This document shows, in pieces, positions 46,971-64,000 of a stretch of DNA of 64,000 nucleotides. The stretch spans positions 2,728,001 to 2,792,000 of the forward strand of contig NC_020541.1 in the NCBI RefSeq assembly GCF_000230695.2, read 5' to 3'. Position 1 is the stretch's first letter, and every line of letters begins with the position of its first letter. Under the pieces are notes generated by a model that saw only the letters and a program-made list of their open reading frames with translations, was not told the DNA's origin and did not search any database. The translations under genes and the position numbers were made by a program. The stretch comes from Rhodanobacter denitrificans (GTDB lineage Bacteria > Pseudomonadota > Gammaproteobacteria > Xanthomonadales > Rhodanobacteraceae).

Positions 46971-47007
46971 ACTTCGATGAGCGCCTCGCGACGTGGAGGG
47001 TGCGGGG

Positions 47008-47185: not shown

Positions 47186-47316
47186 ACCGCCTTATATAAC
47201 AACAACGAGGCCCAAGCATTCGTAAAGAGCCTTAGCACAAACCCTTATCTTAAGCCGTTTGTTTAAGGTAATGGCTCAAAGAGCCACAGCGGAAATCAAT
47301 CACATCCAGACTTGCA

Positions 47317-47337
47317 TGGCATACTAGATGGCACACC
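47317..47337. promoter_or_regulatory. TGGCATAC-type repeat near the integrase end
   Basis: TGGCATAC followed 3 bp later by ATGGCACACC matches 62032-62052 with 4 differences in 21 bp. One copy lies 132 bp inside the distal att, and one 56 bp inside the tRNA-side att. The pair could be integrase or excisionase arm sites. This copy lies in the integrase leader. Confidence 0.55.
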
Positions 47338-47361
47338 AAAACTCAACCTGGAGCCTCCTCT

Positions 47362-48555: not shown

Positions 48556-48561
48556 CTGACA

Positions 48562-48596
48562 AGCCCCTCCCCCAGTTGTTGCTGGGGGGAGGGGCT
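48562..48596 (+). terminator. Hairpin after the integrase
   Basis: The stem AGCCCCTCCCCCAG / CTGGGGGGAGGGGCT with a 6-nt loop begins 7 bp past the stop. No T-tract follows. A stop of integrase transcription is likely. Confidence 0.65.
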
Positions 48597-48619
48597 GTAT
48601 GTGCGCCTAGCTCACAATC

Positions 48620-48859
48620 TCACGGCTGAGAGCGGAGCCAGCCAATTTCGACCTCGAATTGATGGATGAGTACATGCGTCATCCACGTTTTCTTAGACAA
48701 GTGTTCGATGAACTCTTGCAACTTTGCATCGGTGTCAACCTGATGGCTCGCTACGCGGTAGTGCCAGCCTGTCGAGCCAGAAAACACCAAGCAGCCATCT
48801 TCGCGGCTCAAAATTACACTCCCTTCCCCGGAATCCATCGTCAGTTCTTTTTCAGCCAA
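48620..48859 (-). CDS. Hypothetical small protein
   Basis: The frame encodes up to 79 residues, with a TTG start at 48859 or an ATG at 48838 (72 residues). The product is rich in charged residues, has Trp/His-rich parts (SGSTGWHYRVASHQVD) and an acidic C-terminal half, and lacks a signal peptide. I recognise no family. There is no clear ribosome-binding site, so the start and even the reality of the gene are uncertain. It is convergent with the integrase. Confidence 0.4.
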   Translation of the reverse strand: MAEKELTMDSGEGSVILSREDGCLVFSGSTGWHYRVASHQVDTDAKLQEFIEHLSKKTWMTHVLIHQFEVEIGWLRSQP

Positions 48860-48993
48860 AGGAACATGTCAGATGGGGGGCATACACGCCTCTTCAAGCC
48901 GTGGCTCTGTCCCGTCGTTGAAGCTTGAGCAAGGAGGCCCAGTGGTGCAGTCTTAGGCCGACTTCGACATGCCTCGCTGAGGTAAGGACTTCC

Positions 48994-50178
48994 ATGATTG
49001 GCACAGAGCACGATGCACCCTTTGACCTTGTGCCACTCATGGAAATCGCCGCAGAAGCGAGCTACCAGAGGCACATCCTGGCTTTGGCTGCGGCTTTCAC
49101 ACGCCCATCCTTGTACATCCAAATTCCATCAGGAAAAGCGGCGTATTCCAGCAATCTCAAGCGCAGTGTGCATGACGACACAAGCTGGCAGACACAGCAG
49201 CGAGTGGCTGAAGCCCGTAGCAAGGGTGTGCTCGTCATTCGTAACCCGACACTCTGCCACGACATCAGCTTTGTAGCTTTGGCACCTGAGGACGTACGAC
49301 GCTTAGCGATAACAGGGGTCGTGCACGTTCAGCGGTTTATTGGTGGGGTAAAAGCTATCTCTGCGCAAGGGGACCCGGAATATATGCATGCGGTGCTTTG
49401 CCTACGTCCAGCACTGGAACCAGTGGGCTCCTCACCGTTGATCCTGGATTCGCCCGAGCATGCGACCAGAGTCGAGTTGCGAGACGTGCTTCTGGATCGT
49501 GGTGCTATGGGATTGTTGACAGGTTTAGCCGATGCCGATGGGGGGGATAACCCTTTCAATCTGCAGGTACGCGCTCCTGGCGTGTTCGTGCTGTACGCCG
49601 CTGCGAAACATTTCTTTGGGCCAAATCCCCCCGACTCCTTCAATCAAGGGACAGTTAAAAAATGGCTTCTCGACCACAGAAACCAAGCTGTCTCATGGGC
49701 ATACCGTAGTTTCAATAACTACAAGGAGCTAGCCACAGAAGCCAATAGACGGCTCGCATGTAAGCTGATCGACACACGCTACGATTTAGACAAGATCGAC
49801 AGAAGAAAACGACCGGGCAAGCCACTTGATGCCAAGGGGCTACAAAAAGCCATGGCATACCGCAGAGGCGGTTACGTCAGCGACCGCCTTAGCCTTGTTG
49901 CCCTGGCAGTGGAAAAATGGGCGGCATTGACCGAGGCCAACCCTGCCCCAGAAAGCGGCGCCGCTGCCATCGCGAGCCATCAGCTTGATCTGGTTGACAA
50001 GCTTCGCCGTGAACTTCTCAAGTGGGGAATAGACTCCACTAGCGAGCGAGATTCTGTCGTTGACTTTGTGACCTGGCCGAAACTGGCTGCCGACTACCGC
50101 AAAGCGAGGAAGGAACAGAGGGCTTCCAGGAAAACCCTCTTGGTGCAAAACACTAGGCATCGCGCAGGATCTCGTTGA
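48994..50178 (+). CDS. Hypothetical island protein, 394 residues
   Basis: A long frame with a good AAGGA site 8 nt before its ATG (48994). It encodes an otherwise unremarkable soluble protein: no signal peptide, no membrane helix, no recognised catalytic motif. The C-terminal ~120 residues are Lys/Arg-rich with a possible helical nucleic-acid-binding character. It ends 26 bp inside the convergent replication protein gene. The function is unknown; location suggests a satellite-element gene. Confidence 0.6.
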   Translation: MIGTEHDAPFDLVPLMEIAAEASYQRHILALAAAFTRPSLYIQIPSGKAAYSSNLKRSVHDDTSWQTQQRVAEARSKGVLVIRNPTLCHDISFVALAPEDVRRLAITGVVHVQRFIGGVKAISAQGDPEYMHAVLCLRPALEPVGSSPLILDSPEHATRVELRDVLLDRGAMGLLTGLADADGGDNPFNLQVRAPGVFVLYAAAKHFFGPNPPDSFNQGTVKKWLLDHRNQAVSWAYRSFNNYKELATEANRRLACKLIDTRYDLDKIDRRKRPGKPLDAKGLQKAMAYRRGGYVSDRLSLVALAVEKWAALTEANPAPESGAAAIASHQLDLVDKLRRELLKWGIDSTSERDSVVDFVTWPKLAADYRKARKEQRASRKTLLVQNTRHRAGSR

Positions 50179-51397
50179 CCAAGGTAAGGTCGTGCTTGGC
50201 CTTGCGCGGTGCCCCACGCTTCACTCCGCGCCACGATGGGCGATCAATGCCCTTCCACAGATTGCGAGGGTAACCGGTGAGCACCTGGCAATCGGTTTTG
50301 GTGATGTAGCGGATCGCCTCGCGCAGGCCAAGCAGCATCATGCGATCGCTCAGATGGAGCGACCCAAGACAATTCAACGGGTACTGCGAACGCCGAGACC
50401 AGCAGTTGAAGTACGTCCCATAGCCCTCGCTGAAGCGATGCTGCCACGCCTCACCGATCAGGCGTGCATACACCTCCGCCTGCTTATGCTTGTGCCCGTC
50501 CATGGCGACGAGTACGTGGCAATGCATGCCACGACGAAAGCCGAATTCGCGCTTGCAGATCCACGCGACCACGTCCGGCACAATCCGCTTCTCGCGCAGA
50601 GCCCGACGAAACCGACGAACGCAACGGTCACCCGCATCAGTCATGGCCCATGCCTTGTACTCCGGCGCGATGTAAAGCTCGACGCGGAGGATTAGCAGCC
50701 GTGAATACTCGGAGAACTTGGTCGCCATGAACTTGCAGCACGACCGCAGGTTCTCCCGCGCGCAATGCTCGTAGTCGTTCTGGATGCGCTTGAACCTTTT
50801 GGTTCGACAAACGCGACGAACGAAACGCAGGAGATGATTGAGAGCTTTGACGGCCCACTGGTCGCTCAGATCCAGACGCTTGCCGCCGCCACGCACAAGC
50901 CACGGCACCGCCTTCTGGCAAGCGCGCAGCATCACGGTGAGGAACGGATTAAAAATGACCTTCAGGTCATCCAACCGGTAGGGGTCATCGAAGCGATATT
51001 CCGCGACTACTCCAGTCTGATTCCTGTTTTTCAAGCGACATCCCGGATACGCCATTTCGATCATGGGGATGGTGTCCATGCACACATCCAGAACCGCCGT
51101 GCCCAGTGGCGTGAGCATGGGGGTAAGGTGCCCGTAGGTGAGGAGACCTTTTCCGGTGGCCATATGCACGGCATTCTCGTTCTTGTCGGCAATACGCCTC
51201 GCCGCTCTCTCCATGCGTTTGAGCTGCTCAGGCTCGTCGATCTCCTCAGTGATGGAAGACTCGCCGTTCGCCCTGTGCACCATGCCCCGGGCGTACATCT
51301 GGTAGCGCGTCTCGCCGGCTTCTACCCCGCGCCGCATGTCTTCCAGAAGACTGACACTTGCTGCCTTGGCGGGCCTGCTGCTTTGCTTTTCTATCAT
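50153..51397 (-). CDS. Inovirus-type Gp2/YagK-like replication protein
   Basis: The 414-residue protein resembles the YagK/YfjJ-type and inovirus Gp2 proteins. The central part has the two-His motif HCH at 292-294 in FRRGMHCHVLVAMDG, and a Tyr follows at 364 in REAIRYITKTDC. HUH plus Tyr suggests a rolling-circle initiator that nicks DNA. The N-terminal ~200 residues are helical and basic. An AlpA-type regulator lies 122 bp upstream. Alternative: a non-replicative plasmid-mobilisation-like protein. Confidence 0.75.
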   Translation of the reverse strand: MIEKQSSRPAKAASVSLLEDMRRGVEAGETRYQMYARGMVHRANGESSITEEIDEPEQLKRMERAARRIADKNENAVHMATGKGLLTYGHLTPMLTPLGTAVLDVCMDTIPMIEMAYPGCRLKNRNQTGVVAEYRFDDPYRLDDLKVIFNPFLTVMLRACQKAVPWLVRGGGKRLDLSDQWAVKALNHLLRFVRRVCRTKRFKRIQNDYEHCARENLRSCCKFMATKFSEYSRLLILRVELYIAPEYKAWAMTDAGDRCVRRFRRALREKRIVPDVVAWICKREFGFRRGMHCHVLVAMDGHKHKQAEVYARLIGEAWQHRFSEGYGTYFNCWSRRSQYPLNCLGSLHLSDRMMLLGLREAIRYITKTDCQVLTGYPRNLWKGIDRPSWRGVKRGAPRKAKHDLTLVNEILRDA

Positions 51398-51519
51398 TGC
51401 TTTATTTCACCTGGCATCTTGGTTTGATCATTAACTTGCAGCCAATTTGTTATTCCTGTTCACCTCCCTTGAAAAGCCATTAGATAGAAAGCCGTAAATC
51501 GGCTATCACGGATAACCCG

Positions 51520-51891
51520 TCAGAGCATGAATTCCTCCTTGTCAGAAGCATGGCCACGCACGTTTTTCGCCACCTTCGCACGGTTGTTGAGTTGGTCGGT
51601 CAGGTAGGCCTTGGGGCGTGTGTTCATCCAGTCGAGGATTTCGCTTTGAAGCCAACCGACAGCCGAACGATTTTTCCCGCTCCCCAAAACCCGCGGCTGC
51701 GGGAACTCGGGATCAAACGAGGAGTGGCCCACCGTGCAACGATTACGGATCGTTGACGGGCTGAGACCCGTGCGATGCGCCACTTCGGATTCGCGAAGCA
51801 TGCGCTGTGCGCTGCTGAAATCAGCCATGAAGCGGAGAAGCCGCCTGAAGAGACCTTCCAACGTGAAAATAGAGCCATCTTTTTTACCCAT
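51520..51891 (-). CDS. AlpA-family phage regulatory protein
   Basis: The 123-residue protein has the AlpA helix-turn-helix: MLRESEVAHRTGLSPSTIRNR, then the wing ...QPRVLGSGKNRSAVGWLQSEILDWMNTRP. AlpA proteins in cryptic prophages control integrase/excision genes. The N-terminal ~25 residues are an unusual extension. A longer start at 51960 is possible. It stands upstream of the Gp2-like gene on the same strand, and the pair may be one transcription unit. Confidence 0.82.
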   Translation of the reverse strand: MGKKDGSIFTLEGLFRRLLRFMADFSSAQRMLRESEVAHRTGLSPSTIRNRCTVGHSSFDPEFPQPRVLGSGKNRSAVGWLQSEILDWMNTRPKAYLTDQLNNRAKVAKNVRGHASDKEEFML

Positions 51892-52219
51892 CGCATAACC
51901 TGTGTCGTTGAGATGGGCGCAGGATGAGCCGACGGCATGGGTTTCGGCCAGATGAGACAATCTGACCTGCCGCGGCCTGGAGGTCTGAAACCCGCACCAG
52001 GACTGCGCTTGCAGGTCAGACCCCCACCAAGAAAGTAGCGCCGAAACGACTTCGGGTCAGGCAACGCGCCGGACGCGTTCGCGAGGGTGATGGGCCCCAC
52101 CTTGGCCGCCCACTCCATTGCCATTGCCATTTGCTACGGAATGGTGGCCCTACCGATTGATGATGAACCCGCTTCGTTACTTCAAATGATGCCTGGCGCT
52201 ATACAAGCGCACCCGATTG

Positions 52220-52369
52220 GACGAAACGAAACCATAGCGACGCAACGAAATTCATGGCCGGGTTTTGGCGACTTGGTGCCTAATCGGCTGTCGAGTTGGT
52301 TCAACTGTTTGAATGGGCAAAGAGAGGCGAGTTAGACGCAACGAAGTGCAATGAAGTTCGACGAAAATA
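52220..52369. repeat. Iteron-like short repeats upstream of alpA/rep
   Basis: The 542-bp stretch 51961-52502 holds no convincing gene. It contains GACGCAACGAA twice (52239-52249 and 52335-52345) and variants GACGAAACGAA (52220) and CGACGAAAAT (52359). Such repeats near a replication gene can be origin iterons or operator sites. The spacing is irregular. Confidence 0.4.
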
Positions 52370-52502
52370 GTTGCCATCCGTAATTAAGCTTCTTTGTGAA
52401 ACAAAAATCCCACAAATCCACATCACCTTCCCGAGCTGCCATCCCGACAGTTCCATCCATCCGACTAACCGGTGGATGTCTCCCCTCGAAGGAGTCATTG
52501 TG

Positions 52503-52652
52503 ATGTTCAACAACGCATGGGTAGGCTCTCCCTATCCACCACTGCTCGAATGCCTCGTCGTCTTCGCTGTGCTGTTCCTGGCCGGTGTGCTGTGGTCGTG
52601 GGGCCTTCGTTGGTATGTGGCCTGTCGCCTGAAGGAGGCTGCTGATGAATGA
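52503..52652 (+). CDS. Small single-pass membrane protein
   Basis: The 49-residue protein has one hydrophobic helix (LLECLVVFAVLFLAGVLWSWGL) and a short basic C-terminus. AAGGAG lies 8 nt before the ATG. It overlaps the next gene by 8 bp, so the pair is translated together. The size and position are like those of small phage membrane proteins. No function is known. Confidence 0.6.
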   Translation: MFNNAWVGSPYPPLLECLVVFAVLFLAGVLWSWGLRWYVACRLKEAADE

Positions 52653-53013
52653 GGCTCTCCTGGATGACGACGGGAGCGACGACCTCGTGGAGTTCACGCC
52701 GTGCTGCCCTAAATGCCGGTCGGCCCATGTCGAGCCACGCAACCTGGCAAGGCGCTTCGGTGGGGCGATGGGTGCCATCGTAGGAACGACGGGTGGCGTC
52801 GCTGCCGCCGTGGCGGGTGCGGAGGCTGGTGTTCTGGGTGGCCCCATCGGGGTATTACTTGGCGCAGCTGCGGGTGTGGTTATCGAGGGCATTGTTGGCG
52901 GGGCCGCCGGCTGTGCGGCGGGCTCCCGTCTCGGTGACGCCATCGACCGGAACATCCTGCACAACTGCCGCTGCCGCGCCTGTGGCCATACCTTCGGCGG
53001 CACCTCCAGCTAA
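52645..53013 (+). CDS. Glycine-zipper membrane protein with split zinc ribbon
   Basis: The 122-residue protein has a Cys pair CPKC at residues 21-24, a hydrophobic glycine-zipper hairpin (~39-95, built of Gly/Ala/Val with GxxxG spacing), and a second Cys pair CRAC at 110-113. The two knuckles could form a zinc ribbon with the membrane segment looped out. The start overlaps the preceding 49-residue gene. The function is unknown. A 16-bp hairpin follows its stop. Confidence 0.65.
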   Translation: MNEALLDDDGSDDLVEFTPCCPKCRSAHVEPRNLARRFGGAMGAIVGTTGGVAAAVAGAEAGVLGGPIGVLLGAAAGVVIEGIVGGAAGCAAGSRLGDAIDRNILHNCRCRACGHTFGGTSS

Positions 53014-53065
53014 GCCACGACACCCTGTCGCGGTTCGCTTCGACCTTTCCCTCTCATAGCGACAT

Positions 53066-53101
53066 ACGCCCCGGGCCCGGCTTCTGCCGGGCCCGGGGCG
53101 T
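53066..53101. terminator. Strong GC hairpin between two island genes
   Basis: A 16-bp perfect stem (ACGCCCCGGGCCCGGC and complement) with a 4-nt loop, without a full T-tract, lies 52 bp after the zinc-ribbon gene. It is a likely terminator. Confidence 0.65.
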
Positions 53102-53128
53102 TATGCCGTCTCATCCAAGGAGTCTGTC

Positions 53129-53614
53129 ATGCCAAAGGTTCCACCCTCGGCACCGCCGTCAGCCGATCATTCTCACAACGCTACAGATCAAGCCATCCTG
53201 GCTGCCGCGGAGGGCATCCTGCACGAGAAACTTCAGCGGCAAGGTTGCATCGGCAACCCGATGGATGCCGCCGACTTCCTGCGCATGCGCATGGGAGCGC
53301 TACCCCACGAGGAGTTCCATGTCCTGTGGCTCGATAACCGGCATCGCATCCTGGACTGTCAGCGGCTTTTCACCGGCACCGTCGATGGTGCCAGCGTCTA
53401 TCCGCGTGAGGTCGTGCGAGCCGCCTTGGGCATCAATGCCAGCGCGGCCATCTTCGCCCACAACCATCCAAGCGGCGTAGCCGAACCCAGTGCGGCTGAC
53501 CGCGCCATTACCAAGGAGCTACGCGATGCCCTAAGCCTGGTCGGTGTGAGGGTGCTCGATCACCTCGTTGTCGGTGCCGAGTGCGTCAGCATGGCCGGCC
53601 GGGGGCTTCTGTAG
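53129..53614 (+). CDS. RadC-like JAMM-domain protein
   Basis: The 161-residue protein has the RadC JAMM metal site: HNHPSGVAEPSAAD (His111, His113, Asp124) with the upstream catalytic Glu in EEFHVLWLD. It lacks the N-terminal helix-hairpin-helix of full-length RadC (about 225 residues), as is typical of the mobile-element group. The precise function of these proteins is unknown. The ATG at 53129 follows AAGGAG 9 nt away. Confidence 0.9.
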   Translation: MPKVPPSAPPSADHSHNATDQAILAAAEGILHEKLQRQGCIGNPMDAADFLRMRMGALPHEEFHVLWLDNRHRILDCQRLFTGTVDGASVYPREVVRAALGINASAAIFAHNHPSGVAEPSAADRAITKELRDALSLVGVRVLDHLVVGAECVSMAGRGLL

Positions 53615-53642
53615 CTCCCTTCTCTAAGTCAAAGCGACGTAC

Positions 53643-53966
53643 TCATTTGGCGCTTTCTCGGGGCTTCCTGACCTTCATCGCAGATGGCAGGTGCTTGGGA
53701 AGTACGTCTAGTGTGCTTTCCACCTGTTGCGCATAGGCAGCGAGTGGTGTCCCGGTGGCCTTACACCAATCGTAGAGCTGGAGGATGTCGAGTCGCCGTC
53801 GACCCAGCTCGACATCAGCCACGAAAGTTTGTGTGCGCCCCAGCTTCACGGCTAGTTGCCGCTGGGTCAACTTGGCTGACAGACGCGCGGACTTCAGGAG
53901 AGCCCACGCGATGGCGTATTCGCCTCTGTCGACCGATTTGACACTTTTGTCAGTACGCATCGCCAT
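53643..53966 (-). CDS. XRE-family helix-turn-helix regulator
   Basis: The 107-residue protein has an HTH (LTQRQLAVKLGRTQTFVADVELGRRRL, residues ~32-56) of the Cro/CI type. N- and C-terminal parts are charged. It may control island genes. It converges on radC. The start is MAMRTDKSVK; there is no clear ribosome-binding site. No toxin gene was found next to it. Confidence 0.8.
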   Translation of the reverse strand: MAMRTDKSVKSVDRGEYAIAWALLKSARLSAKLTQRQLAVKLGRTQTFVADVELGRRRLDILQLYDWCKATGTPLAAYAQQVESTLDVLPKHLPSAMKVRKPRESAK

Positions 53967-54438
53967 GGCCCCACCATACGGAGGCGCCGAGACGATCTAT
54001 TTATCAACTCATGGACTTCTTATGCCTAGGCGATGCAGTCGCCAAATTGTGCTTATTTCTTGGGCTTTTTGATGAATAGATCCTTCATGCGCCACTCCTC
54101 GTTGAACCGTTTTATAGTTCAGTTCAGAATGAGGGTGCATCATTGATGCGTAGCTTGGATTCCGATCTGAGCAGCATTCAAAGCTGGCCACAGGGGGCCA
54201 TCGAACAACCGATGCGAAGCCGCACACACCTAAGACAAAGCCAATGAACACTTCATCGACTGTGAAGCGGCGGTGGGCATGTCGATTGGTGACCACGCGC
54301 AGCGAGTTCTGTTTCTTCACTCTGATCTTGGGCGGGTCGGCTCTTTACCAAGGGCGGCCTGCGGGGATGGGGCCGCGTACACGAAGGCGGTTCCCGCAGT
54401 ACCAGTTGAGCCAACCACACCACTCACAAGGAAACACC
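53967..54438. other. 472-bp intergenic stretch with an 11-codon open frame
   Basis: No gene of normal size is convincing. On the minus strand a tiny frame (54053-54088), encoding MKDLFIKKPKK, has GAGGAG 7 nt before its ATG and ends about 90 bp before the XRE gene. It could be a leader peptide or the end of a decayed gene. Several longer frames cross this stretch but lack starts and codon bias. Confidence 0.35.
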
Positions 54439-55137
54439 ATGACCGCTGTTGCGAATACCTATCCGTCCTATCGGACGAACCTGCAATCGCTTTCCCCGGC
54501 CCAGCGCTACAACCTCATCATCAGTCGCCTCTTCCTGGCCACCTGCTTGGCCGGCGCAATGGCCAGTGGACTCGTATTCCTGGCAACCGACAACGGCTTC
54601 GGGCTCGTGCTTCAGTACCTGCTGCCGATCGTCGCCCTGCCGTTCATCGTTTGGCGCGGTGCCTGCCGTGGTTCCTACTTCCGCGGCACGCAGCTTCCGA
54701 GCGGGTATGTCAAGAAGGATAGCCCCGCGCTCAAGAAGGAATACATCATGGCCGCCATCGGCGGCGTGATCGTGGCGGTTCTCGTCGGCATCGGCTGCGC
54801 CGTAGTCAGTAGTGGTGGCGCAGCCTCCTTCTTCACGGTGATCGTGGGCGCCTTTGCTGCGGGCTGGTTCCATACCCGCGGCTTCCTCGCGGGCTGGAAC
54901 CGCGTCGATGCGGTGGACAGCAATAACGGTCCGGCCGTCGTTGCCAAGCCCAATGCGGCCACCAGTCTCCTGATCTGGAGCGCCCTCCTGACGGTCCTGA
55001 CGCTCTGTAACCTCTGGGGCATCATGCAGAACCCTTCGATGATTGAGCAGGCGTTGGCCCTCCAGTCGCAGTCGCAGTCGCAGACCTGTGACTCCACCTG
55101 CCAGGCGATGTCTGGTAACAGCAGCGATTCCCAGTAA
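54439..55137 (+). CDS. Hypothetical membrane protein, 232 residues
   Basis: About five hydrophobic helices are visible (e.g. LFLATCLAGAMASGLVFLA, LVLQYLLPIVALPFIV, IGGVIVAVLVGIGCAVV). An exposed C-terminus rich in Gln/Ser and two Cys (QTCDSTCQAM) ends the protein. An AAGGA site precedes the ATG. It is followed by a strong hairpin and then the lipoprotein gene, in the same direction. No family is known to me; the two could form one envelope-linked unit. Confidence 0.65.
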   Translation: MTAVANTYPSYRTNLQSLSPAQRYNLIISRLFLATCLAGAMASGLVFLATDNGFGLVLQYLLPIVALPFIVWRGACRGSYFRGTQLPSGYVKKDSPALKKEYIMAAIGGVIVAVLVGIGCAVVSSGGAASFFTVIVGAFAAGWFHTRGFLAGWNRVDAVDSNNGPAVVAKPNAATSLLIWSALLTVLTLCNLWGIMQNPSMIEQALALQSQSQSQTCDSTCQAMSGNSSDSQ

Positions 55138-55144
55138 GTCCCTC

Positions 55145-55181
55145 GCATACAGCCCCGCCCGGTGAGGACGGGGCTGTATGC
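55145..55181. terminator. Hairpin between membrane-protein and lipoprotein genes
   Basis: A 13-bp stem (GCATACAGCCCCG and complement) with an 11-nt loop lies 8 bp past the stop. It resembles the other island hairpins without T-tracts. Confidence 0.6.
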
Positions 55182-55203
55182 CCTCCATCGAAGGAAGCCC
55201 CCT

Positions 55204-56955
55204 ATGAAAACCCTCCTTTTCATCGTGGCTGTCGCCGCAGCCATCACCCTCACGGGCTGCGCCCCCGACAAGCACATCACTGAGGTGAAGGCGCTCGCCT
55301 TCAGCTACCCCAGCAACAACGTCCCAGATCCCAACATGACCGTGGATCAGGCACTCGATTATCGCAAGGTCTGCGACTCCGTGAAGTGGAAGGTCGACGA
55401 GACCGAACAGCACCAGACCTTTGTCGAATACAACTGCGATTACAAAAACGTCAAAGACTCATCGTTCATCGCTAATAACTTGGAGGAAGCCAAAGCAAAA
55501 AATCCGAACGCTACCGGAGCTGTGCGTATCGGTGATGTCTACCAGTGGGTCTATGGCGCAGACGGTAAGCCCGTGCTCTCCTACGTCACGCTGAGGTACC
55601 AGTTCGCAAACGGAACGTCCAAGGACGTGACACAGTCTGACATCGTCATGGGGGAGTTCCGTCTTACGGGGACCGGTTGGATGACGACGCTCATGCAGCA
55701 AGCGGTTGAGAACACGGCGATCGATTATGACCACTTCTACGCACAGCTCTATGGCAAACGCATTCCGCCTATGCCTCTCCCGTTGATCAAGCCTGCTTCG
55801 CCCATCACGAAGTCGACCTACGCAAATACCGTCGCCGCGCTTTATCCGGGCAAGAGTCCCACCGAAGCAGCTGCTCTTGCTTATCGGTGGATCGGTTCGC
55901 CAGTGAAGGTTCAAGGGGTGAATGCGCTTGGATATCCCACTCAGGCAGCAACCTGCAATTACAGTGGAGAAACGGTTGATAGACAGGGAAGGCCTTCTAG
56001 CGCCGGAACGATGCAATGCGATGTCACGTTGAACAATGGAACTAGAATCGGATACGACGAGGCTCAATTCGTGAGTCATCTGCTTCCTGTTGATCCCAAG
56101 GACGTACAGACGGCCCTTCGGATCATGCTCGGACTGACTGAGTCACGTTTCCATGCGGGTTTCGTTCAACTTTCGCCGACTAAGCTCCTGTGTGCGAGTC
56201 GTCTGTGCTTTGATCGGGACGGTCATGTCGTAGGGTGGGCACCTGACTCCGTCTTCACCAAGGAAACGATAATTGTTCTTCCGCCGAAAGTAACGTTCGA
56301 TGCGTACGGTAATGATTTCACTCGCTACTACCCCGACCGGTCGCCTCAAGAGGCGATGAAGGCCGCTATGGACGAGCTTTCTCCCATCGGGACCTCTGGT
56401 ATGAATACGGAAGGTTATCCGGTCTATGAGGTGAAATGCGTATCGGACAACGATTGCTTCCACACGAAGAATGGCCAGTTGCTTCCTCAGTCCTTCGGCA
56501 GTCCATCCAGAACTGCCGGGTACATGTTTCCCGTGAATCCGAAGGACATCGGCAAAAACGGCATCCAGTGCGATACGTACTTCTGCAAGGATGGCCAAGG
56601 CAACATCATCGGCAGTAATCCAGACCTACATCCTTCGCGGTCAGTGACAAGCACGGCCACGCCACCGCTAGCTTCTGCTCACGTCCAGCCAACACCAGTC
56701 ACTCCGGTGGCACCGCAGGTGGTGAACTCGGCCGTGGCGGGTCTGACAGGACCCTCGCAGCCGCAAACCACTCCGTTGGCGCAGGCAGCTTCTAGTGACG
56801 AAGCCGACCAAGGCGGTTGGCCTAAGATGACCCCTTGCATCCAGAAGCTGCAGGACAAGTTCACGGCCGACCAACAGAAACAGAACGCCGACACATCGAC
56901 CAGTCTGGAGCAGATGCAAGAGTGGGCTGACGTCTGCAAGTCGCTCGGTCAGTGA
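55204..56955 (+). CDS. Hypothetical repeat-containing lipoprotein
   Basis: The 583-residue protein has a lipoprotein signal (ITLTGC, Cys at about residue 19). The body shows a repeated module: YPGKSPTEAAALAYRW with CNYSGETV and LPVDPKDVQ, LCFDRDGHVVG (about residues 203-358), and again YYPDRSPQEAMKAAMD, YEVKCVSDND, FPVNPKDIG, CKDGQGNIIG (about 362-480). A weaker copy may begin near residue 30. The last ~100 residues are a Pro/Thr/Ala linker and a helical end. Many Cys pairs suggest disulfides. GAAGGA precedes the ATG. I know no family. Confidence 0.65.
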   Translation: MKTLLFIVAVAAAITLTGCAPDKHITEVKALAFSYPSNNVPDPNMTVDQALDYRKVCDSVKWKVDETEQHQTFVEYNCDYKNVKDSSFIANNLEEAKAKNPNATGAVRIGDVYQWVYGADGKPVLSYVTLRYQFANGTSKDVTQSDIVMGEFRLTGTGWMTTLMQQAVENTAIDYDHFYAQLYGKRIPPMPLPLIKPASPITKSTYANTVAALYPGKSPTEAAALAYRWIGSPVKVQGVNALGYPTQAATCNYSGETVDRQGRPSSAGTMQCDVTLNNGTRIGYDEAQFVSHLLPVDPKDVQTALRIMLGLTESRFHAGFVQLSPTKLLCASRLCFDRDGHVVGWAPDSVFTKETIIVLPPKVTFDAYGNDFTRYYPDRSPQEAMKAAMDELSPIGTSGMNTEGYPVYEVKCVSDNDCFHTKNGQLLPQSFGSPSRTAGYMFPVNPKDIGKNGIQCDTYFCKDGQGNIIGSNPDLHPSRSVTSTATPPLASAHVQPTPVTPVAPQVVNSAVAGLTGPSQPQTTPLAQAASSDEADQGGWPKMTPCIQKLQDKFTADQQKQNADTSTSLEQMQEWADVCKSLGQ

Positions 56956-56957
56956 TA

Positions 56958-56997
56958 GAGCATCCGCTCCTCCCCGCATAGGGAGGAGCGGATGCTC
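56958..56997. terminator. 17-bp hairpin after the lipoprotein gene
   Basis: GAGCATCCGCTCCTCCC and its exact complement form a stem with a 6-nt loop, starting within a few bases of the stop. No T-tract. It lies between the convergent lipoprotein and KTSC genes. Confidence 0.7.
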
Positions 56998-57113
56998 CAT
57001 TGGTGGTACGAGCCACTGAAATAAGCAAGGCACTCCGGAGGCGCCTTGGTCGGTGCGTCGGTCATCCATGTGGCGACAACCGAAGCGACGATACATGCCG
57101 CGGGTGCCGTGAA

Positions 57114-57323
57114 TTATAGCTTCACAAACGGATATCGATTCTTGATATTGGCGTGAAGATACTTCCCCTTGGAATCTGCGTTCATGATCCCGTCGTGTTC
57201 GCTAGAAGGTACACCGGAATACTGGTAAACCGACCCATCATTGAACTCGATCTCAAGTATCTGGTTATCCTCGTCGTAGCCGATTGAGGCGATGTTGCTT
57301 GAGCTGACTGGCGTACGTTCCAC
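57114..57323 (-). CDS. KTSC domain protein
   Basis: The 69-residue protein has the KTSC fold pattern: SSNIASIGYDEDNQILEIEFNDGSVYQYSGVP, then KGKYLHANIKNRYPF. A GTG start (57323) has GGAGA 8 nt upstream. It lies 19 bp after the HerA stop on the same strand, so it is probably the last gene of the operon. The KTSC role is not established; it occurs in phage and defence contexts. No catalytic residue is evident. Confidence 0.8.
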   Translation of the reverse strand: MERTPVSSSNIASIGYDEDNQILEIEFNDGSVYQYSGVPSSEHDGIMNADSKGKYLHANIKNRYPFVKL

Positions 57324-57342
57324 GGTCGTCTCTCCTGGTCAA

Positions 57343-59247
57343 TTAGGCCTGCGGTTTCGTCGGTGCAGTTGTGCCTGCGTTCGGGTCCTGCTTGCGCCAT
57401 GCCTCGACAAGAGGCTTGTAGTTCTCATTTTTCACAGGTTCTGTCCAGCCACCGCTTCGTACGCGCTTTCCGCTTGAGTCTTTGGGGACGACGACCAGTG
57501 GATCGTCACTGTCGGGCCGGCGACCTTCGGCGGGCCGATCAATGATCGCCCTGATGGGCATATTGACCGCCTCTCCGACCACTAGCGCCTCGCCGGTGCG
57601 CAATACCGGAAGCATCGAAAACAACCCTTTGAGGTTGTCTGAAGCGCAAGAAGTGACTTGGGAGCGATCCTTGTCATTTGTTAGCCGCATTGCAATGACG
57701 GTTCCGCACTGAGACAAAATCGTGGGATCGACTTCGGCGGGGCGTTGGCTAACTAGCATCAGGCCCACGCCGTACTTCCGCCCTTCCTTTGCGATACGTC
57801 GTGCAGCGTTCGCTGCACGGCTTTTCGACTCTGCTCCCAGGTAGACGTGCGCTTCCTCCAGCACGATCATCAATGGTCTTTGCCGACCGCCTTCCTGTTT
57901 CTGTCGTCCCCAAAATACGGCGTCGTAGAGAATGCGCAGCACGGCCCCGACGAGATCGTCAACAATCGCAGTGGGAATCCCCGAAAGATCGAAGACTGAA
58001 ATCGGAGAGGCCGAGCCTATCCACTCGGCTAGCAGCGCATCAAGATCTGCGGTAGTTGAGTTGTCTTTGGCGACAGACCACTCGCCTGGGCGAAAAAGGA
58101 ACTGCATCCGAGGATCGCGGAGCTTGCTTTCCAGGACGTCCAGGTGCGCGCGTGGTATATCAGCGTAGAGGCCTGCGTAGACTTTGTCAGGGTCATTCGT
58201 CTCGTTTTTAAGCGCTCGAAATCTCGGCCGCTCAAGCTTGTCCGCATCGCCAACCGCCTTCACTGGGGGCGTGCCTTCCTCGGCATAGGCGCGCGTGTTC
58301 TCGCTCTGGTTCTGGTTTTTGCTAACGCTGTGGCTAGCGCAATGCAGCGAGTACAAGTCATGCCAGAGCTGATAGACAGAGAATGGCAGCGGTGTGTCTA
58401 TCGTCACCGAGAGGTCGGGCATGCCGTGAGCAACGCCGCCAGCTTTGGAAGCTCTTTTGCTCGCAAGTAGCCTCTCTTGCAGCAACGTGAGCGGAGTCGA
58501 AGTGACTGACCCCATTGACATCGAAATGAACTCTTCGGCCGTCAGCGCCCAGAACGGCACGTGCAGCTCACGCTCTCCGGCTTTGGTATCAGCGCCGACT
58601 TTGAAGACTCTGGCTAGGTCGCCAAACGCCTTTCCGTACTCGCCGTGAAGGTCAAACAACACCACGCGGGCTGATTTGAAGTGCTCCCGATTCGACACGG
58701 CGCCGAGCAAGTTTGCGACTGCATTGGACTTGCCAGCACCAGTGCTCCCGACGACTGCAGAATGACGGCTGACGAGGCGATTCAGGTCGAGATATGCGCG
58801 AATCGACTCGGCGCTGGCGACGCGGCCAATCGCAACGTACCCGTCTTCGTCCTCCGGAGCGTACACAGTCTTCAGATCTGATTCGGTAACTACGTGGACC
58901 GAGTCTCCAATAGACGGATACTGGGCTATGCCTCGCTCAAACTTCGTGCCGCGACGCCCTTGACCGACGAGTTCCACGCGAAGCCATCGGTTGCCGAACT
59001 GCGGAGCAAGTTCTGGCGGTCCGGGTGCAGCTCCAGCACCAACCTGGGAGATCACCCCATAGAGGTCAACATAGCCGGACGGAATGCGAACAAACCCACC
59101 GACTTGGCCGACCTGGTACGCCTCTCCGTTAACGAACAGGAGTCCGCCCGGCGTGTTCTCTTCCAGCTTTACGCTGATGCTCGATCCGTCAACATTCTCC
59201 ACGGTGCCAAGCCGGGAAGGGGCCGAGTTAGACAGTGACGTGTGCAT
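57343..59247 (-). CDS. HerA-type ATPase (helicase/DNA translocase)
   Basis: The 634-residue HerA/FtsK-like ATPase begins with a HAS-barrel-like domain (~10-140). Walker A GSTGAGKS is at 167-174, FDLHGEYG near 198-205, and Walker B LMIVLEEAHVYL at 459-470, followed by the sensor region GVGLMLVSQRPAEVD with the Gln/Arg pair. HerA assembles as a hexamer and pairs with nucleases or SIR2 proteins. The ATG at 59247 overlaps the SIR2 3' end by 20 bp and has GGGAG 8 nt before it. The gene is the third of the operon. Confidence 0.93.
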   Translation of the reverse strand: MHTSLSNSAPSRLGTVENVDGSSISVKLEENTPGGLLFVNGEAYQVGQVGGFVRIPSGYVDLYGVISQVGAGAAPGPPELAPQFGNRWLRVELVGQGRRGTKFERGIAQYPSIGDSVHVVTESDLKTVYAPEDEDGYVAIGRVASAESIRAYLDLNRLVSRHSAVVGSTGAGKSNAVANLLGAVSNREHFKSARVVLFDLHGEYGKAFGDLARVFKVGADTKAGERELHVPFWALTAEEFISMSMGSVTSTPLTLLQERLLASKRASKAGGVAHGMPDLSVTIDTPLPFSVYQLWHDLYSLHCASHSVSKNQNQSENTRAYAEEGTPPVKAVGDADKLERPRFRALKNETNDPDKVYAGLYADIPRAHLDVLESKLRDPRMQFLFRPGEWSVAKDNSTTADLDALLAEWIGSASPISVFDLSGIPTAIVDDLVGAVLRILYDAVFWGRQKQEGGRQRPLMIVLEEAHVYLGAESKSRAANAARRIAKEGRKYGVGLMLVSQRPAEVDPTILSQCGTVIAMRLTNDKDRSQVTSCASDNLKGLFSMLPVLRTGEALVVGEAVNMPIRAIIDRPAEGRRPDSDDPLVVVPKDSSGKRVRSGGWTEPVKNENYKPLVEAWRKQDPNAGTTAPTKPQA

Positions 59248-60541
59248 CAGAAGTGCTCCCGCCGCAAACTTGCTCCAAGAACAGTCCGAAGTAATGGAAA
59301 TCACCGAGGCGGCAGCGCGGTACGCGATCTTTCGGATCGCTACCCGCGACGGATTCTTCTATCAACCACGGCGCGTGCTCATCGCCGCCCGTAGTTTCAG
59401 GTCGGTATCGTCCAGCACGTGTTCCCACCACTGCCCCATCTGAGGCGAGTACGGTCAGATTGCTTTGCTTCGATGCGTATTCGACGACACGGGGATGTGC
59501 GTCGAGGCTGGAGTACATCAGGGCAAAACACTGGGCGTTACGATTGCCGCGCAGGCCATCGAGCAAAATCTCATTCAGGTGGTCATCCAGGAACGAATAG
59601 CCGCAGACGATCAACCGAGGCGCATCTTTCCCATGAAAGAAGGCCCGCAAACGATCGAGCATTGCCAAGTACGGCATCCTGCGGCTTTGGTCGTACTTCA
59701 AGTGTGATGGATAGATCATCACCTTTCCGGCTGCGGCAGCACCGGTGACCCGAACGATGCGCGTCACTGTCGTCGCGTTCACGGTCTCCTCGTTCTTTTC
59801 CCAGTTTATCGAACCATGAAGTTTCCAAAGCCGCGTCCAACGCTTGGGGATCGCATCATGTTCGATCGAAGAAAGGTCGAACCAGGGTTCACGCGATCCG
59901 ACAAAGCCGTCGAAGTGTGGTAAAGGATGCTGCTCAAGGGCCTGCTCAAACAGCAAGTCGTAGTTTGGTGTGAATATTTCCGTGGGCCAATCTCTCTGGA
60001 CGCCTCCGATCCATGAGGCAAGGCGGGTGTACGAATTTCGGTATGCCGGCAGATTTTTGCTTATCTCCTTAGCGATCAATGCGCAAATCGCCTCATCGAG
60101 ATCAGTAAGGTTCTTTTTCGTCATCCCGAGAATTTCTGCGTTTCCCCGGCGATTTGCCAATGCCCGAAGTTCTGTCAGGACATCCTCGACTGTCGGTTCT
60201 TTTCCATCAGACGGTTTGCACTCTCCATACATCGCGTCCCAATGTGTCTTGAACGTGGAAGTAGCGCCGGGCATGCTGTCAGTGGCCTGCAATCCACTGG
60301 CGACCCGCTTGGTCAACTCGACGACAGCGGGAATTAGTACGACGCTATTTTCACCAGCCGCGTCGTAGACGCCGAGAGGACAGCCTGCACCAAGAAAGCA
60401 ACCGACGCGCTGCTTGTCGTCCTGAAGAACTTGACGGAGATTCCTTGCCTGCTGAGCCGCGTCGTGGAGCTGCGGCAGTGCCGGCACGGAAGGCGCGGTC
60501 GAAACGGCTGATACCGCGCCCGGAGTTGGTCCGGTTGTCAT
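59228..60541 (-). CDS. SIR2-domain NADase-like protein
   Basis: The 437-residue protein has the NAD-binding SIR2 pattern: GCFLGAG (47-53), then FTPNYDLLFE (190-199, with Asn193/Asp195) and the catalytic His in KLHGSINW (His242), and IVCGYSFLDDHLNEIL further on. Bacterial SIR2 proteins of this kind degrade NAD+ upon phage infection. The C-terminal ~100 residues may sense or bind HerA. Start ATG (60541) overlaps the DUF2130 stop (ATGA); the 3' end overlaps HerA. Tight coupling suggests a complex of fixed stoichiometry. Confidence 0.9.
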   Translation of the reverse strand: MTTGPTPGAVSAVSTAPSVPALPQLHDAAQQARNLRQVLQDDKQRVGCFLGAGCPLGVYDAAGENSVVLIPAVVELTKRVASGLQATDSMPGATSTFKTHWDAMYGECKPSDGKEPTVEDVLTELRALANRRGNAEILGMTKKNLTDLDEAICALIAKEISKNLPAYRNSYTRLASWIGGVQRDWPTEIFTPNYDLLFEQALEQHPLPHFDGFVGSREPWFDLSSIEHDAIPKRWTRLWKLHGSINWEKNEETVNATTVTRIVRVTGAAAAGKVMIYPSHLKYDQSRRMPYLAMLDRLRAFFHGKDAPRLIVCGYSFLDDHLNEILLDGLRGNRNAQCFALMYSSLDAHPRVVEYASKQSNLTVLASDGAVVGTRAGRYRPETTGGDEHAPWLIEESVAGSDPKDRVPRCRLGDFHYFGLFLEQVCGGSTSDAHVTV

Positions 60542-61854
60542 TGTGGCAACTCTCCTTGGTTGTCATCGCCCGAACCTGGCAATGCCGCCAAACTCAAGCC
60601 TTCGATTTCCTGCAACGTCTTTCCTGCTATGCCCTGAAGGTCGCCATACATCCCAACCGTGGCGACCATGACTCGCTCGATTTGCTCGTCGCGTTTTGCC
60701 CATTGCTTCATGATCGCCTTGCGCTCCCTGTCTAAGTCGTTTCTCATCGAAGAAAAGGCTTCGACGATCGCCTCGACGCGGTGACGAAATCTGGGGCCGG
60801 TGAGGTACTGATAGACCATCTCTGTCTTTGTTTGCTGTCCTTCACCGACCTGTCGCGCGACACCTATTTCGAGCAGGGTATGACGCAGAATAGTGGCTAC
60901 CGGCAATGCGGCTCGGGGTGTGGTTACCCATACGCCGTCCACGACGTCAAATGTCTCGATGCCTTTCGGTAGCGCCTGGCTAACAAGAATCGACACTTCC
61001 GCCTTGGCAGCTCGCTGGTCGTCACGCAGCTTGGCAAGCCAGCCATCGCTCCAGTTCTTGGTGCGCTTCGACTCCCAGAGAATCGCTCCGCTTGGCTGCC
61101 CAGTAGAGCTGTTGACGCGCTGAAGCACATCGCCGCCAAACTCACCTTTTGCGACTGGCTCAATGGAGTCGAATGGGAACTTGGTTCGCAGGAGGCTTTC
61201 GAGATCCATCTCCTGAACTTCCCCCTGCAACTGTTGAGAGCCTTGCTCGGCTTTCTGTTTCAACTCCTCGATCTTCTGCTGCATGGAGGCGATCGTCTGA
61301 TCTTTCTCCAGCACCTTGAGCTTGAGGCTGTCCTCGGCTTCTCGTTTTGCGGACGTACGAACGTCGTCTAGGCTCTCTTGAACACGCTTTTCTACGGTAA
61401 GTTCAAGCTCCCGCTTTGCATCATCCAGCTCGCGCTGTTTCTTAATTAGCCCGGCCTGCGCGTTTTGCGCTTCGGCCAGTTTTGCGTCACGGGACTTCAG
61501 CACCTCTTGCAGATCGACAAGCTCGCGGGTCTTTGCTTCTAACTCGGTCGCTGCGGCGAGTCGTGCTTTCTTGGATTCTTCGGCGATGACACGTTCGCGC
61601 TCGGTCTTTAACTGCGCAGCAACTTGATCTGCGACTTGTTCGTCTAGGGTACGTCGCGCATCGAGAATTTCCTTTTCTCTGTCCCGGATATTCTGTTCTC
61701 GCTTGGCAACGTCCTCGTCCTTCTGGCGTAGTTGTTGCTCGTACTGCTGGCGAGTTGCGGCAATCAACGGTGCCGCGAGCGATTCAGTCAGGCGAATTTC
61801 CGTCTTGCAGTTTGGGCAAACAATCTTCGGGTCCGATGTTGAGGTATCGCTCAT
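60538..61854 (-). CDS. DUF2130 coiled-coil protein with PD-(D/E)XK-like nuclease signature
   Basis: The 438-residue protein starts with a Cys pair (CPNC, 13-16), a long charged coiled coil (~40-215), then a globular domain matching DUF2130. In it GGD (Asp242) and WESKRT (Glu261, Lys263) form the spacing of a PD-(D/E)XK nuclease core. The C-terminus is helical. Members are predicted nucleases, sometimes near restriction loci. The ATG at 61854 was chosen; TTG at 61914 would extend it by 20 residues. It is the first gene of the operon, ending in an overlap with the SIR2 gene. Confidence 0.85.
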   Translation of the reverse strand: MSDTSTSDPKIVCPNCKTEIRLTESLAAPLIAATRQQYEQQLRQKDEDVAKREQNIRDREKEILDARRTLDEQVADQVAAQLKTERERVIAEESKKARLAAATELEAKTRELVDLQEVLKSRDAKLAEAQNAQAGLIKKQRELDDAKRELELTVEKRVQESLDDVRTSAKREAEDSLKLKVLEKDQTIASMQQKIEELKQKAEQGSQQLQGEVQEMDLESLLRTKFPFDSIEPVAKGEFGGDVLQRVNSSTGQPSGAILWESKRTKNWSDGWLAKLRDDQRAAKAEVSILVSQALPKGIETFDVVDGVWVTTPRAALPVATILRHTLLEIGVARQVGEGQQTKTEMVYQYLTGPRFRHRVEAIVEAFSSMRNDLDRERKAIMKQWAKRDEQIERVMVATVGMYGDLQGIAGKTLQEIEGLSLAALPGSGDDNQGELPQ

Positions 61855-61914
61855 GATCTCTTGTGCCCCGTCTTGCAGTTCCAATGTGATTGATGATGGC
61901 TTAGCAGGACGCAA

Positions 61915-61952
61915 GAAAGAAGGGAGCCGGCCGGAGGCCCGTCTCTTCTTTC
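61915..61952. terminator. Hairpin in the leader of the DUF2130-SIR2-HerA operon
   Basis: GAAAGAAG and CTTCTTTC pair around a GC-rich inner stem, about 60 bp before the DUF2130 start. On the minus strand it is followed by T-rich bases. It may stop transcription coming from tRNA-Ser, or act as an attenuator. Together with flanks, 61855-62107 has no gene. Confidence 0.55.
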
Positions 61953-62031
61953 AATCTGTACCATCAAACTTGGATGTTTGCCGCGGATGCTCAACGAGGC
62001 GCGACTGGGCACAACCACAAACAACAACGGC

Positions 62032-62052
62032 TGGCATACCCAATGGCATACC
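62032..62052. promoter_or_regulatory. TGGCATAC-type repeat near the tRNA end
   Basis: TGGCATAC, then 3 bp, then ATGGCATACC: the partner of 47317-47337. It also forms part of an imperfect palindrome GGCTGG...CCAGCC. Confidence 0.55.
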
Positions 62053-62071
62053 AGCCGTCTTTGCTTGCGAG

Positions 62072-62096
62072 TAAGTTGTTCTAGATCAACAACTTA
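62072..62096. repeat. Inverted repeat next to the attachment site
   Basis: TAAGTTGTT / AACAACTTA, perfect 9-bp arms around a 7-bp centre, 12 bp from the tRNA-Ser 3' end. A possible integrase or Xis binding site or a substitute tRNA terminator. Confidence 0.5.
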
Positions 62097-62107
62097 GTTC
62101 ATTCAAT

Positions 62108-62121
62108 TGGCGGAGAGAGAG
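62108..62121. other. Island attachment site, tRNA-side copy
   Basis: TGGCGGAGAGAGAG, the 3' end of tRNA-Ser including the encoded CCA complement, identical to 47172-47185. Confidence 0.85.
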
Positions 62122-62200
62122 GGATTCGAACCCTCGATAAGGCTTTTGACCCTATACTCCCTTAGCAGGGGAGCCCCTTCGGCCACTCGGGCATCTCTCC
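62108..62200 (-). tRNA. tRNA-Ser (anticodon GCT)
   Basis: The 93-nt class II tRNA has acceptor GGAGAGA / TCTCTCC with encoded GCCA, anticodon stem CTCCC / GGGAG with loop CTGCTAA (GCT, decoding AGC and AGT), a long variable arm and T-arm GGTTCGAATCC. It is intact after the insertion because the island copy of its 3' end restores the gene. csrA lies 77 bp upstream of it. Confidence 0.96.
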
Positions 62201-62277
62201 GGGGTTTTCTTCGCATTGCTGCGGAGCCGGCAAGGATACCGACCGGCGCGGTCGAGGTAAAGCCTCAATTCACCGGA

Positions 62278-62481
62278 TCAATGCTCAGCGGACTCATCAG
62301 GTGTGCTGCCGGCGTCGTGTTCGCCCTTGATCCGCTGATAGATCTCTTCGCGATGGACGGCCACGGTTTTCGGTGCATTGATGCCGATGCGCACCTGATT
62401 GCCTTTCACGCCAAGAACGGTAACGGTCACCTCGTCGCCGATCATCAGGGTTTCACCGACCCTGCGGGTCAGAATCAACAT
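62278..62481 (-). CDS. csrA: Carbon storage regulator CsrA
   Basis: The 67-residue CsrA has the full motif [51 protein letters not shown]. The RNA-binding residues Arg6/Leu4 and the C-terminal Arg-His-Glu-Ile block are present. It binds GGA in mRNA leaders. GGAG lies 8 nt before the ATG. The order alaS-csrA-tRNA-Ser is the common gammaproteobacterial one. The 269 bp to alaS may hold its promoters. Confidence 0.97.
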
Positions 62482-62750
62482 GATTGCTACTCCATAGTGC
62501 TGTTGGTCACAGGCCTGCGAATCGACGGTGCCTCACCCCTGAGCGCCCGCCTGTCCACAGTTCGACGATTGATCCGCCGAAGGCCCTACCGCCTTCCCGG
62601 CTCACAGCCAAAACACTCCTGAGCGTCCTGACTGGCGACACCACCGTTACCGATCGCGCCGACACTGGACCGATAGTAACTGAGCCGGAATCTCCTGCGC
62701 AATGCACCGCCAGCATGGCGGACGGTGCGTTCAGCTCGGCTGCTTGTCGC

Positions 62751-64000
62751 CTATTGGGCCGCGACCCAACTCGGCAGTGCGGCAAGGATGGCCGGCAAAT
62801 TCGGAGTGTCGGTGCCGCCCCCTTGGGCCATGTCCGGTCGGCCACCACCCTTGCCGTCGATCTGGCTGGCGACGTGGGCCACCACGTTGCCAGCCTTGAC
62901 CCGCTCCAGCGCCCTGCCGTGCACGCCGGCGATCAGCGCGACGCGGCCCTCGGCCGCGCCGGCCAGCAGCACCACGCAGTCACCGAGCTGCTGTTTGAGC
63001 TGGTCCACGCTGTCACGCAACGACTTCGCGTCGAGCCCTTCCAGCCGCGCAGCCACCACCTTGATGCCACCGACATCCTTTGCGGCTCCGGCCAGGTCGG
63101 CGGTGGCCGAACCTGCCGCCTTGCTGCGCAGCGATTCCAGCTCGCGCTCGAGCTTCTTCTGGCGGTCGAACAGCTGGCGCAGCTTCTCCACCGCCTCGTC
63201 GCCGCTGCTGGAAAGCAGCTGCGCGAACTCGGCCAGGCGACGCTCCTCGTCGACCACCCAGGCCAGCGCGCCGGCACCGGTGACCGCCTCGATGCGGCGC
63301 ACGCCGGAAGCCACGCCGGCCTCGCTGACGATCTTGAACAGGCCGATGTCGCCGGTGCGCCCCACGTGGGTGCCGCCGCACAATTCGGTGGAGAAGTCAC
63401 CCATCTTCAGCACGCGCACTTCGTCGCCGTACTTCTCGCCGAACAGCGCCATCGCGCCGAATTCGATCGCCTGGTCGTAACCCATGTTGTGCACCTCGGC
63501 CGCCGCGTTGCGGCGTACCTCGGCATTCACCATGGCCTCGACCCGTGCTACCTCGTCGTGGCTCATCGGCTTGTGATGCGAGAAATCGAAACGCAGCCGT
63601 TCCGGCGCCACCAGCGAGCCCTTCTGCGCGACGTGCGTGCCTAGCACCTGGCGCAGCGCCGCATGCAGCAGATGAGTGGCTGAATGGTTGAGCACGATCG
63701 CCTGGCGGCGCGACGCATCCACCCGCGCCTCGACCGTGTCGCCGGTACGCAGCGGCCGCCCGCCATGCCAGCGGCCGGCGTGGCCGAAGAACACGCCACC
63801 CATCTTCAGCGTATCGGCAACCTCGAAGCGACCAGCCGCATTGGACAGCGTGCCGGTGTCGCCGACCTGGCCACCGGACTCGGCGTAGAACGGCGTGCGG
63901 TCGAGGATCAGCAAGCCCTCCTCGCCTTCGCCCAGCTGATCGACCTGCTTGCCGCCGCGCACGATGCCGAGCACCTTGCTGCCTTCACTCTGCAGCGCCT
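62751..64000 (-). CDS. alaS: Alanyl-tRNA synthetase, C-terminal part
   Basis: The visible 416-residue part has the editing/second additional domain with the metal motif HxxxH (NHSATHLLHAALRQ) and TELCGGTHVGRTGDIG, the oligomerisation linker (SSGDEAVEKLRQLFDRQKKLEREL) and the C-Ala domain ending with GGGRPDMAQGGGTD. It continues past the window edge, where the aminoacylation domain lies. The in-frame GTG at 63974 is internal. The gene is transcribed toward csrA. Confidence 0.95.
   Translation of the reverse strand, partial: ALQSEGSKVLGIVRGGKQVDQLGEGEEGLLILDRTPFYAESGGQVGDTGTLSNAAGRFEVADTLKMGGVFFGHAGRWHGGRPLRTGDTVEARVDASRRQAIVLNHSATHLLHAALRQVLGTHVAQKGSLVAPERLRFDFSHHKPMSHDEVARVEAMVNAEVRRNAAAEVHNMGYDQAIEFGAMALFGEKYGDEVRVLKMGDFSTELCGGTHVGRTGDIGLFKIVSEAGVASGVRRIEAVTGAGALAWVVDEERRLAEFAQLLSSSGDEAVEKLRQLFDRQKKLERELESLRSKAAGSATADLAGAAKDVGGIKVVAARLEGLDAKSLRDSVDQLKQQLGDCVVLLAGAAEGRVALIAGVHGRALERVKAGNVVAHVASQIDGKGGGRPDMAQGGGTDTPNLPAILAALPSWVAAQ

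Follow-up and report, generated by a model that had tools for sequence, protein, structure and literature searches.

An overlapping DUF2130-SIR2-HerA-KTSC operon in Rhodanobacter denitrificans: a candidate anti-phage cassette with an exchanged DUF2130 partner

We analysed a 64,000-nucleotide stretch of the Rhodanobacter denitrificans genome (contig NC_020541.1, positions 2,728,001 to 2,792,000; hereafter the window), in which four genes follow one another on the minus strand, encoding a DUF2130 protein, a SIR2-like nicotinamide adenine dinucleotide (NAD+) hydrolase, a HerA-type ATPase/translocase and a small KTSC protein (Table 1). The DUF2130 stop and the SIR2 start have four bases in common (ATGA), the SIR2 and HerA genes overlap by 20 bases, and a gap of 19 bases separates HerA from KTSC. 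Open reading frames (ORFs) and Pfam matches bear out this order and these junctions, both of which had been described in an earlier note that proposed the locus as a candidate extended form of the Nezha anti-phage system. The whole 4.23-Mb genome holds a single match each for DUF2130 and HerA. The arrangement is not due to chance, as four-gene blocks are shared with other genomes and DUF2130, rare overall, recurs before SIR2.

Table 1. Features of the window and of three compared loci (L numbers denote loci in other genomes).
Feature	Position	Strand	Description
Four-gene operon	57114-61854	minus	DUF2130, SIR2, HerA, KTSC
DUF2130 gene	60538-61854	minus	438 aa; PF09903 E 8.6e-80
SIR2-like NADase gene (by homology)	59228-60541	minus	437 aa; PF13289 E 4.7e-15
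HerA-type ATPase/translocase gene (by homology)	57343-59247	minus	634 aa; PF01935 E 8.8e-31
KTSC gene	57114-57323	minus	69 aa, GTG start; PF13619 E 8.8e-28
tRNA-Ser(GCT)	62108-62200	minus	3' end carries one 14-bp putative att copy (62108-62121)
Second 14-bp putative att copy, TGGCGGAGAGAGAG	47172-47185	none	island span 47172-62121
Island tyrosine integrase	47362-48555	plus	Arm-DNA-bind_3, Phage_int_M, Phage_integrase
Island RadC-like JAB protein gene	53129-53614	plus	
640-bp element, L247	3045-3684		inverted ends; weak IS200-like transposase match
640-bp element, L248	3634-4273		inverted ends; weak IS200-like transposase match
640-bp element, L261	5517-6157		inverted ends; weak IS200-like transposase match

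The SIR2 and HerA proteins match the PADLOC models PDLC04094 (SIR2, E 1.3e-114) and PDLC04105 (HerA, E 2.9e-153). Among aligned relatives, SIR2 N193 is kept in 74/74 rows and H242 in 73/74 (the remaining row has a gap), the HerA Walker A Lys is kept in 69/69 rows, and both Walker motifs, A and B, are intact in the window HerA. Both proteins are homologous along most of their length to a solved SIR2/HerA antiphage complex (PDB 8wld, 8woc, 8wod, 8wof; HerA chain 8wiv, SIR2 chain 8w9l). Adjacent genes, intact catalytic motifs and this homology make the pair a SIR2-HerA system in the broad sense, and the defence-type pair previously recognised here stands; against the canonical Nezha equivalogs, NF042942 and NF042944, the window proteins score far under the cut-offs (54.2 bits where 500 are needed, and 237.2 where 850 are). 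SIR2 and HerA distances are highly correlated in a co-inheritance test (r 0.97). For related systems, PMC11559045 and PMC12198126 describe a HerA-bound SIR2 that becomes an active NAD+ hydrolase upon infection.

KTSC belongs to this core. The window protein scores over the PF13619 gathering cut-off and has the KTSC fold, and a KTSC gene follows HerA in 68 of the 70 testable loci of the window's SIR2-HerA clade. In the solved complex (PDB 8wld/8wiv) a KTSC domain 51% identical to the window's is joined to the HerA C-terminus, whereas in the window it is a separate gene. SIR2, HerA and KTSC are thus predicted to be one conserved machine. Given this near-constancy and the fusion, KTSC is probably the C-terminal domain of HerA, encoded here on its own, a better reading than the added regulator or inhibitor suggested before, which we abandon. 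Two papers returned by our searches mention KTSC with HerA. PDB 8wld may come from one of Tang 2023, Shen 2023, Liao 2024 or Zhen 2024; the newness of the KTSC point is modest, as papers on the solved complexes may already discuss the KTSC domain. The fusion does give the small KTSC domain, called RNA-binding in PMC7824862, a physical place, and it splits SIR2-HerA systems into KTSC-bearing and KTSC-free clades.

The fourth gene behaves differently from the core. A DUF2130 gene is the immediate upstream neighbour of SIR2 in 24 of the 71 clade loci testable there (3 of the 24 being near-identical), and the four-gene form, whose recurrence the earlier note had proposed to check, is present in unrelated genomes. 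For the SIR2+HerA tree we dropped L020, L028, L029, L075 and L076 (near-identical), L060 (broken) and L001 (a copy of the window), and counted L010, L023 and L044, which are untestable upstream, as being without DUF2130. All upstream DUF2130 genes then fall in a single 37-row part of the tree (support 85/88), where 23 of the 37 rows have one, the window included, and presence switches at least 12 times. The place before SIR2 is taken by either of two subfamilies: the window's type (A) and a B type (L003, L008, L013, L030), which is 23-25% identical to the window DUF2130. A divergent-sequence DUF2130 also precedes SIR2-HerA-KTSC in L153. The DUF2130-SIR2 junction is -4 in 9/24 loci, 8 of these with ATG, the start being taken as the start codon nearest the DUF2130 stop, a choice biased towards small gaps.

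DNA comparisons delimit the block. Homology with L004 of Plasticicumulans acidivorans (89.5%) spans 57098-61875 of the window, exactly the four genes and neither flank when 46001-64000 is compared, and homology with L021 (77.6%) spans 57108-61837, again the four genes; there the contig begins at DUF2130 and only the KTSC side can be judged. With Thiomonas L003, homology covers SIR2-HerA-KTSC (57112-60560) and ends about 20 bases past the SIR2 start, where L003 carries a B-type DUF2130 instead. Behind KTSC in the same locus (Thiomonas FB-6, 12938-14365) lies another B-type gene, so the locus has two.

The DUF2130 protein begins with a CPxC motif (C13, P14, C16), followed by a helix of about 200 residues (a coiled coil), a PD-(D/E)XK-like domain (D242, E261, K263) and C-terminal helices. 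G240-G241-D242 and E261-x-K263 are invariant in 28/28 rows of a hand-chosen alignment that includes subfamilies 23-25% identical. In the structure model, D242 stands directly ahead of strand 243-248, and E261 and K263 close strand 254-263, which places the D...(D/E)xK motif on the beta-hairpin of an alpha/beta core. The protein thus fits a putative PD-(D/E)XK nuclease, in keeping with the coiled-coil, PD-(D/E)XK-like protein read from this sequence before; the residues singled out then (SIR2 N193/H242, the HerA Walker A Lys, DUF2130 E261/K263) were correctly named, judging by their conservation. Our literature searches returned no paper joining DUF2130 with SIR2 and HerA and, judged by title and abstract start, none on DUF2130, COG4487 or PF09903 that is about defence; the newness of the DUF2130 findings rests on these searches.

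The clearest view of DUF2130 changing partners comes from one genus, in which 4/4 genomes examined carry DUF2130 genes 95-98% identical. Behind them lies IetA-IetS in L247 and L249, and a PDC-S06-type AAA_13 ATPase in L248 and L261. The DNA upstream of DUF2130 is common to all five locus pairs compared. Between loci with different effectors, homology breaks off about 40 bp or less from the DUF2130 stop (L248 against either L247 or L249; L247 against L261 is similar) and returns past the effector, at the 640-bp element in L247, L248 and L261 and just beyond the element's place in L249. Identity is only 66% between the two IetS proteins and likewise between the two AAA_13 proteins, so the effectors have diverged far more than DUF2130. 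Elsewhere in that family, a different genus has a 92-94% identical DUF2130 ahead of an Orf5/HEC-06 gene, the surrounding DNA being otherwise unrelated. A HepT-like ribonuclease gene (L247, 8436-8996) stands directly before DUF2130.

This pattern would also be expected if DUF2130 had no defence role and were mainly a recombination anchor, whose homology allows cargo to be swapped behind it: in the genus just described, homology runs through the gene nearly to its stop, ends, and resumes beyond the cargo. In the window's clade, however, DUF2130 and effector form one block common with L004 while the flanks are not, and in L003 it is DUF2130 itself that has been replaced. The catalytic residues are also invariant across subfamilies that have otherwise diverged widely. 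We consider an anchor role improbable.

More widely, PF09903 was found in 30/398 sampled Pseudomonadota genomes (31 genes). Ten of the 31 genes have a same-strand neighbour from a SIR2(-HerA-KTSC) operon or with a PADLOC match at E <= 1e-15: SIR2 in the window and, at a contig end, in L141; OLD in L140 and, upstream, in L206; a Lit-like protein in L144; an OLD/AriA-like one in L145; KTSC, ahead of DUF2130, in L149; SIR2-HerA-KTSC in L153; PDC-S06 at 148 bases in L204; and a type III methylase plus nuclease in L210. L141 and L069 are apparently the same 9282-base contig, and so one case. The threshold was set after the control had been seen; in this small control, at most 4 of 17 core window genes match PADLOC at 1e-5 or better (best 2.3e-7) and none at 1e-15. 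A second sampling, covering 369 genomes of the class, yielded 13 A-type genes including the window's, 7 of them with a defence neighbour: SIR2 in the window, SIR2 and HerA pieces in L246, IetAS in L247 and L249, PDC-S06 in L248, and HsdR, upstream, in L255 and L256. Four scanned genes have none (L250, L251, L253, L254), and L227 and L252 were unscanned; scans took in one or two genes per locus. In a tree built from 54 chosen DUF2130 rows, L140, L142, L246 and others with other partners interleave with the SIR2-HerA-KTSC copies and the partner label changes at least 12 times, support being patchy and the bootstrap unsettled.

Some further neighbours deserve mention. Close behind A-type DUF2130 genes, L142 16-1509 (498 aa) and L143 5598-7328 (577 aa) have no Pfam or PADLOC match and are candidate effectors. 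On a Bradyrhizobium japonicum plasmid (L223, 9343-12392), a 'nuclease PIN' gene and another SIR2-family gene lie about 2 kb from DUF2130. HerA genes occur beside a DUF4297-like neighbour (PDLC02187) at L151 1675-4642 and L152 7131-10176.

Returning to the window, GC (guanine plus cytosine) content is 0.67-0.71 upstream but drops to 0.55-0.62 from about 47000 to about 62000. This drop, the 14-bp repeat at tRNA-Ser and the integrase suggest an integrative island some 15 kb long, with the cassette apparently at its tRNA end. Two 142-nt direct repeats, 99% identical (46829-46970 and 47008-47149), lie immediately beyond the putative left att. Two island genes, 48925-50178 (plus strand, 417 aa) and 50153-51397 (minus strand, 414 aa), have no Pfam match at 0.001. 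The plus-strand ORFs adjoining the cassette, 54244-55137 (297 aa) and 55162-56955 (597 aa), have no PADLOC match and no Pfam match above cut-off, the 597-aa ORF weakly matching lipoprotein families only.

We lean towards reading the operon as an anti-phage cassette that is mobile, keeps its core and can exchange its front end, DUF2130, which would be coupled to the adjacent effector. Several observations weigh against this. In 47/71 testable loci SIR2 has no DUF2130 immediately upstream; the gene is found in 0/32 tree rows outside the 37-row part (L044 being untestable there), and its distances only weakly track those of SIR2 and HerA (r 0.43 and 0.42, n=18). A divergent-sequence copy sits 257 bases behind KTSC in L149, and in L150 DUF2130 is oppositely oriented beside a SIR2-HerA pair without KTSC. 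Most sampled DUF2130 genes showed no recognised defence neighbour; of the 31, 11 were scanned and had none, 1 is divergent (L150) and 9 were unscanned. The order is reversed in L255, L256 and L206, where the neighbour precedes DUF2130. Finally, the pTM (predicted template modelling score) of the DUF2130 model is 0.37, and Foldseek gave it no PDB match at E <= 0.001.

In many genomes the core evidently manages without DUF2130. Two subfamilies at the same place, repeated changes of presence and weak co-inheritance together make DUF2130 an exchanged partner. The idea of a fixed fourth part, an 'extended Nezha', accordingly fails: the gene is often absent from that place, the B subfamily replaces it in four loci, and close relatives stand beside unrelated effectors elsewhere. 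The conserved neighbourhood on which the earlier note had staked that idea does hold for KTSC within the clade. A shared exchangeable module fits DUF2130 better.

The same optional presence and weak co-inheritance, along with the many copies lacking a recognised defence neighbour, might instead mean that DUF2130 is an independent defence nuclease that shares operons and islands without functional coupling to SIR2-HerA-KTSC; three regions read on rhizobial plasmids (L222-L224) indeed have no SIR2-HerA next to DUF2130. The overlapping DUF2130-SIR2 junctions, the two subfamilies at one place and the near-identical DUF2130 genes with different effectors immediately behind all argue otherwise, and we think such independence rather unlikely. 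DUF2130 might also hold a dangerous effector off until infection, whether as a repressor, an antitoxin-like guard or a maturation factor, since it is often encoded first, tightly coupled to potentially cell-harming and chemically diverse enzymes. With so many SIR2 loci of the clade lacking it at that place, and with its nuclease-type catalytic residues conserved, a guard seems very unlikely.

In the cassette that we favour, SIR2, HerA (a hexameric ATPase/translocase) and KTSC would assemble as in the solved complex and deplete NAD+ during infection. DUF2130 would be a probable PD-(D/E)XK nuclease, or a nuclease-fold DNA sensor, at one tip of a coiled-coil rod; the CPxC motif at the opposite tip could pair through zinc in a dimer. 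Most likely it works on DNA in the service of the neighbouring effector; it might trim, hold or recognise ends or branches of invading DNA and so feed or license the adjacent effector. As the chemistry of the effectors varies, their common element would be detection or processing of the invader rather than killing, and the presence of DUF2130 next to several unrelated defence systems suggests that it could be a plug-in component which they share. Tentatively, we can imagine that DUF2130 serves bacterial immunity in general as an exchangeable front end: a coiled-coil PD-(D/E)XK protein, paired through zinc, would sense or process invader DNA and activate whichever effector adjoins it, be it SIR2-HerA-KTSC, the subtilase IetAS, an OLD nuclease, a Lit-like protease, an AAA_13 ATPase, Orf5/HEC-06 or a type I or III restriction enzyme. 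If true, these many effectors would rely on one sensor or loader whose active site is defined and open to testing, and the neighbourhood of DUF2130 would be a guide to unknown effectors.

Among known systems, the solved SIR2/HerA complex differs from the window on DUF2130, of which no relative was found by sequence anywhere in PDB (the best hit, at E 0.028, is to viral coiled coils). Nezha, or canonical SIR2-HerA (NF042942/NF042944 type; PDB 8j4u, 8su9 and others), has the same pair in the same order with weaker homology of both proteins. In 18 loci related to NF042942 that we read, just 2 of them above that model's cut-off, KTSC stood behind HerA in 0/17 testable and DUF2130 was found in 0/18 of the stretches read, while the window has both. 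HerA-DUF4297 and Hachiman (HamAB) pairs have the logic of ATPase plus nuclease in common with the window (PMC12198126); their nuclease is the ATPase-bound effector, whereas in the window SIR2 would take that place and DUF2130 would be an extra protein. Systems of HerA, KTSC and an endoDNase, as mentioned in PMC9503650 (2022), also couple HerA to a KTSC gene and have a nuclease-type partner, but the window joins the nuclease-like DUF2130 and a sirtuin in one HerA operon, which runs counter to the published argument that the two are mutually exclusive.
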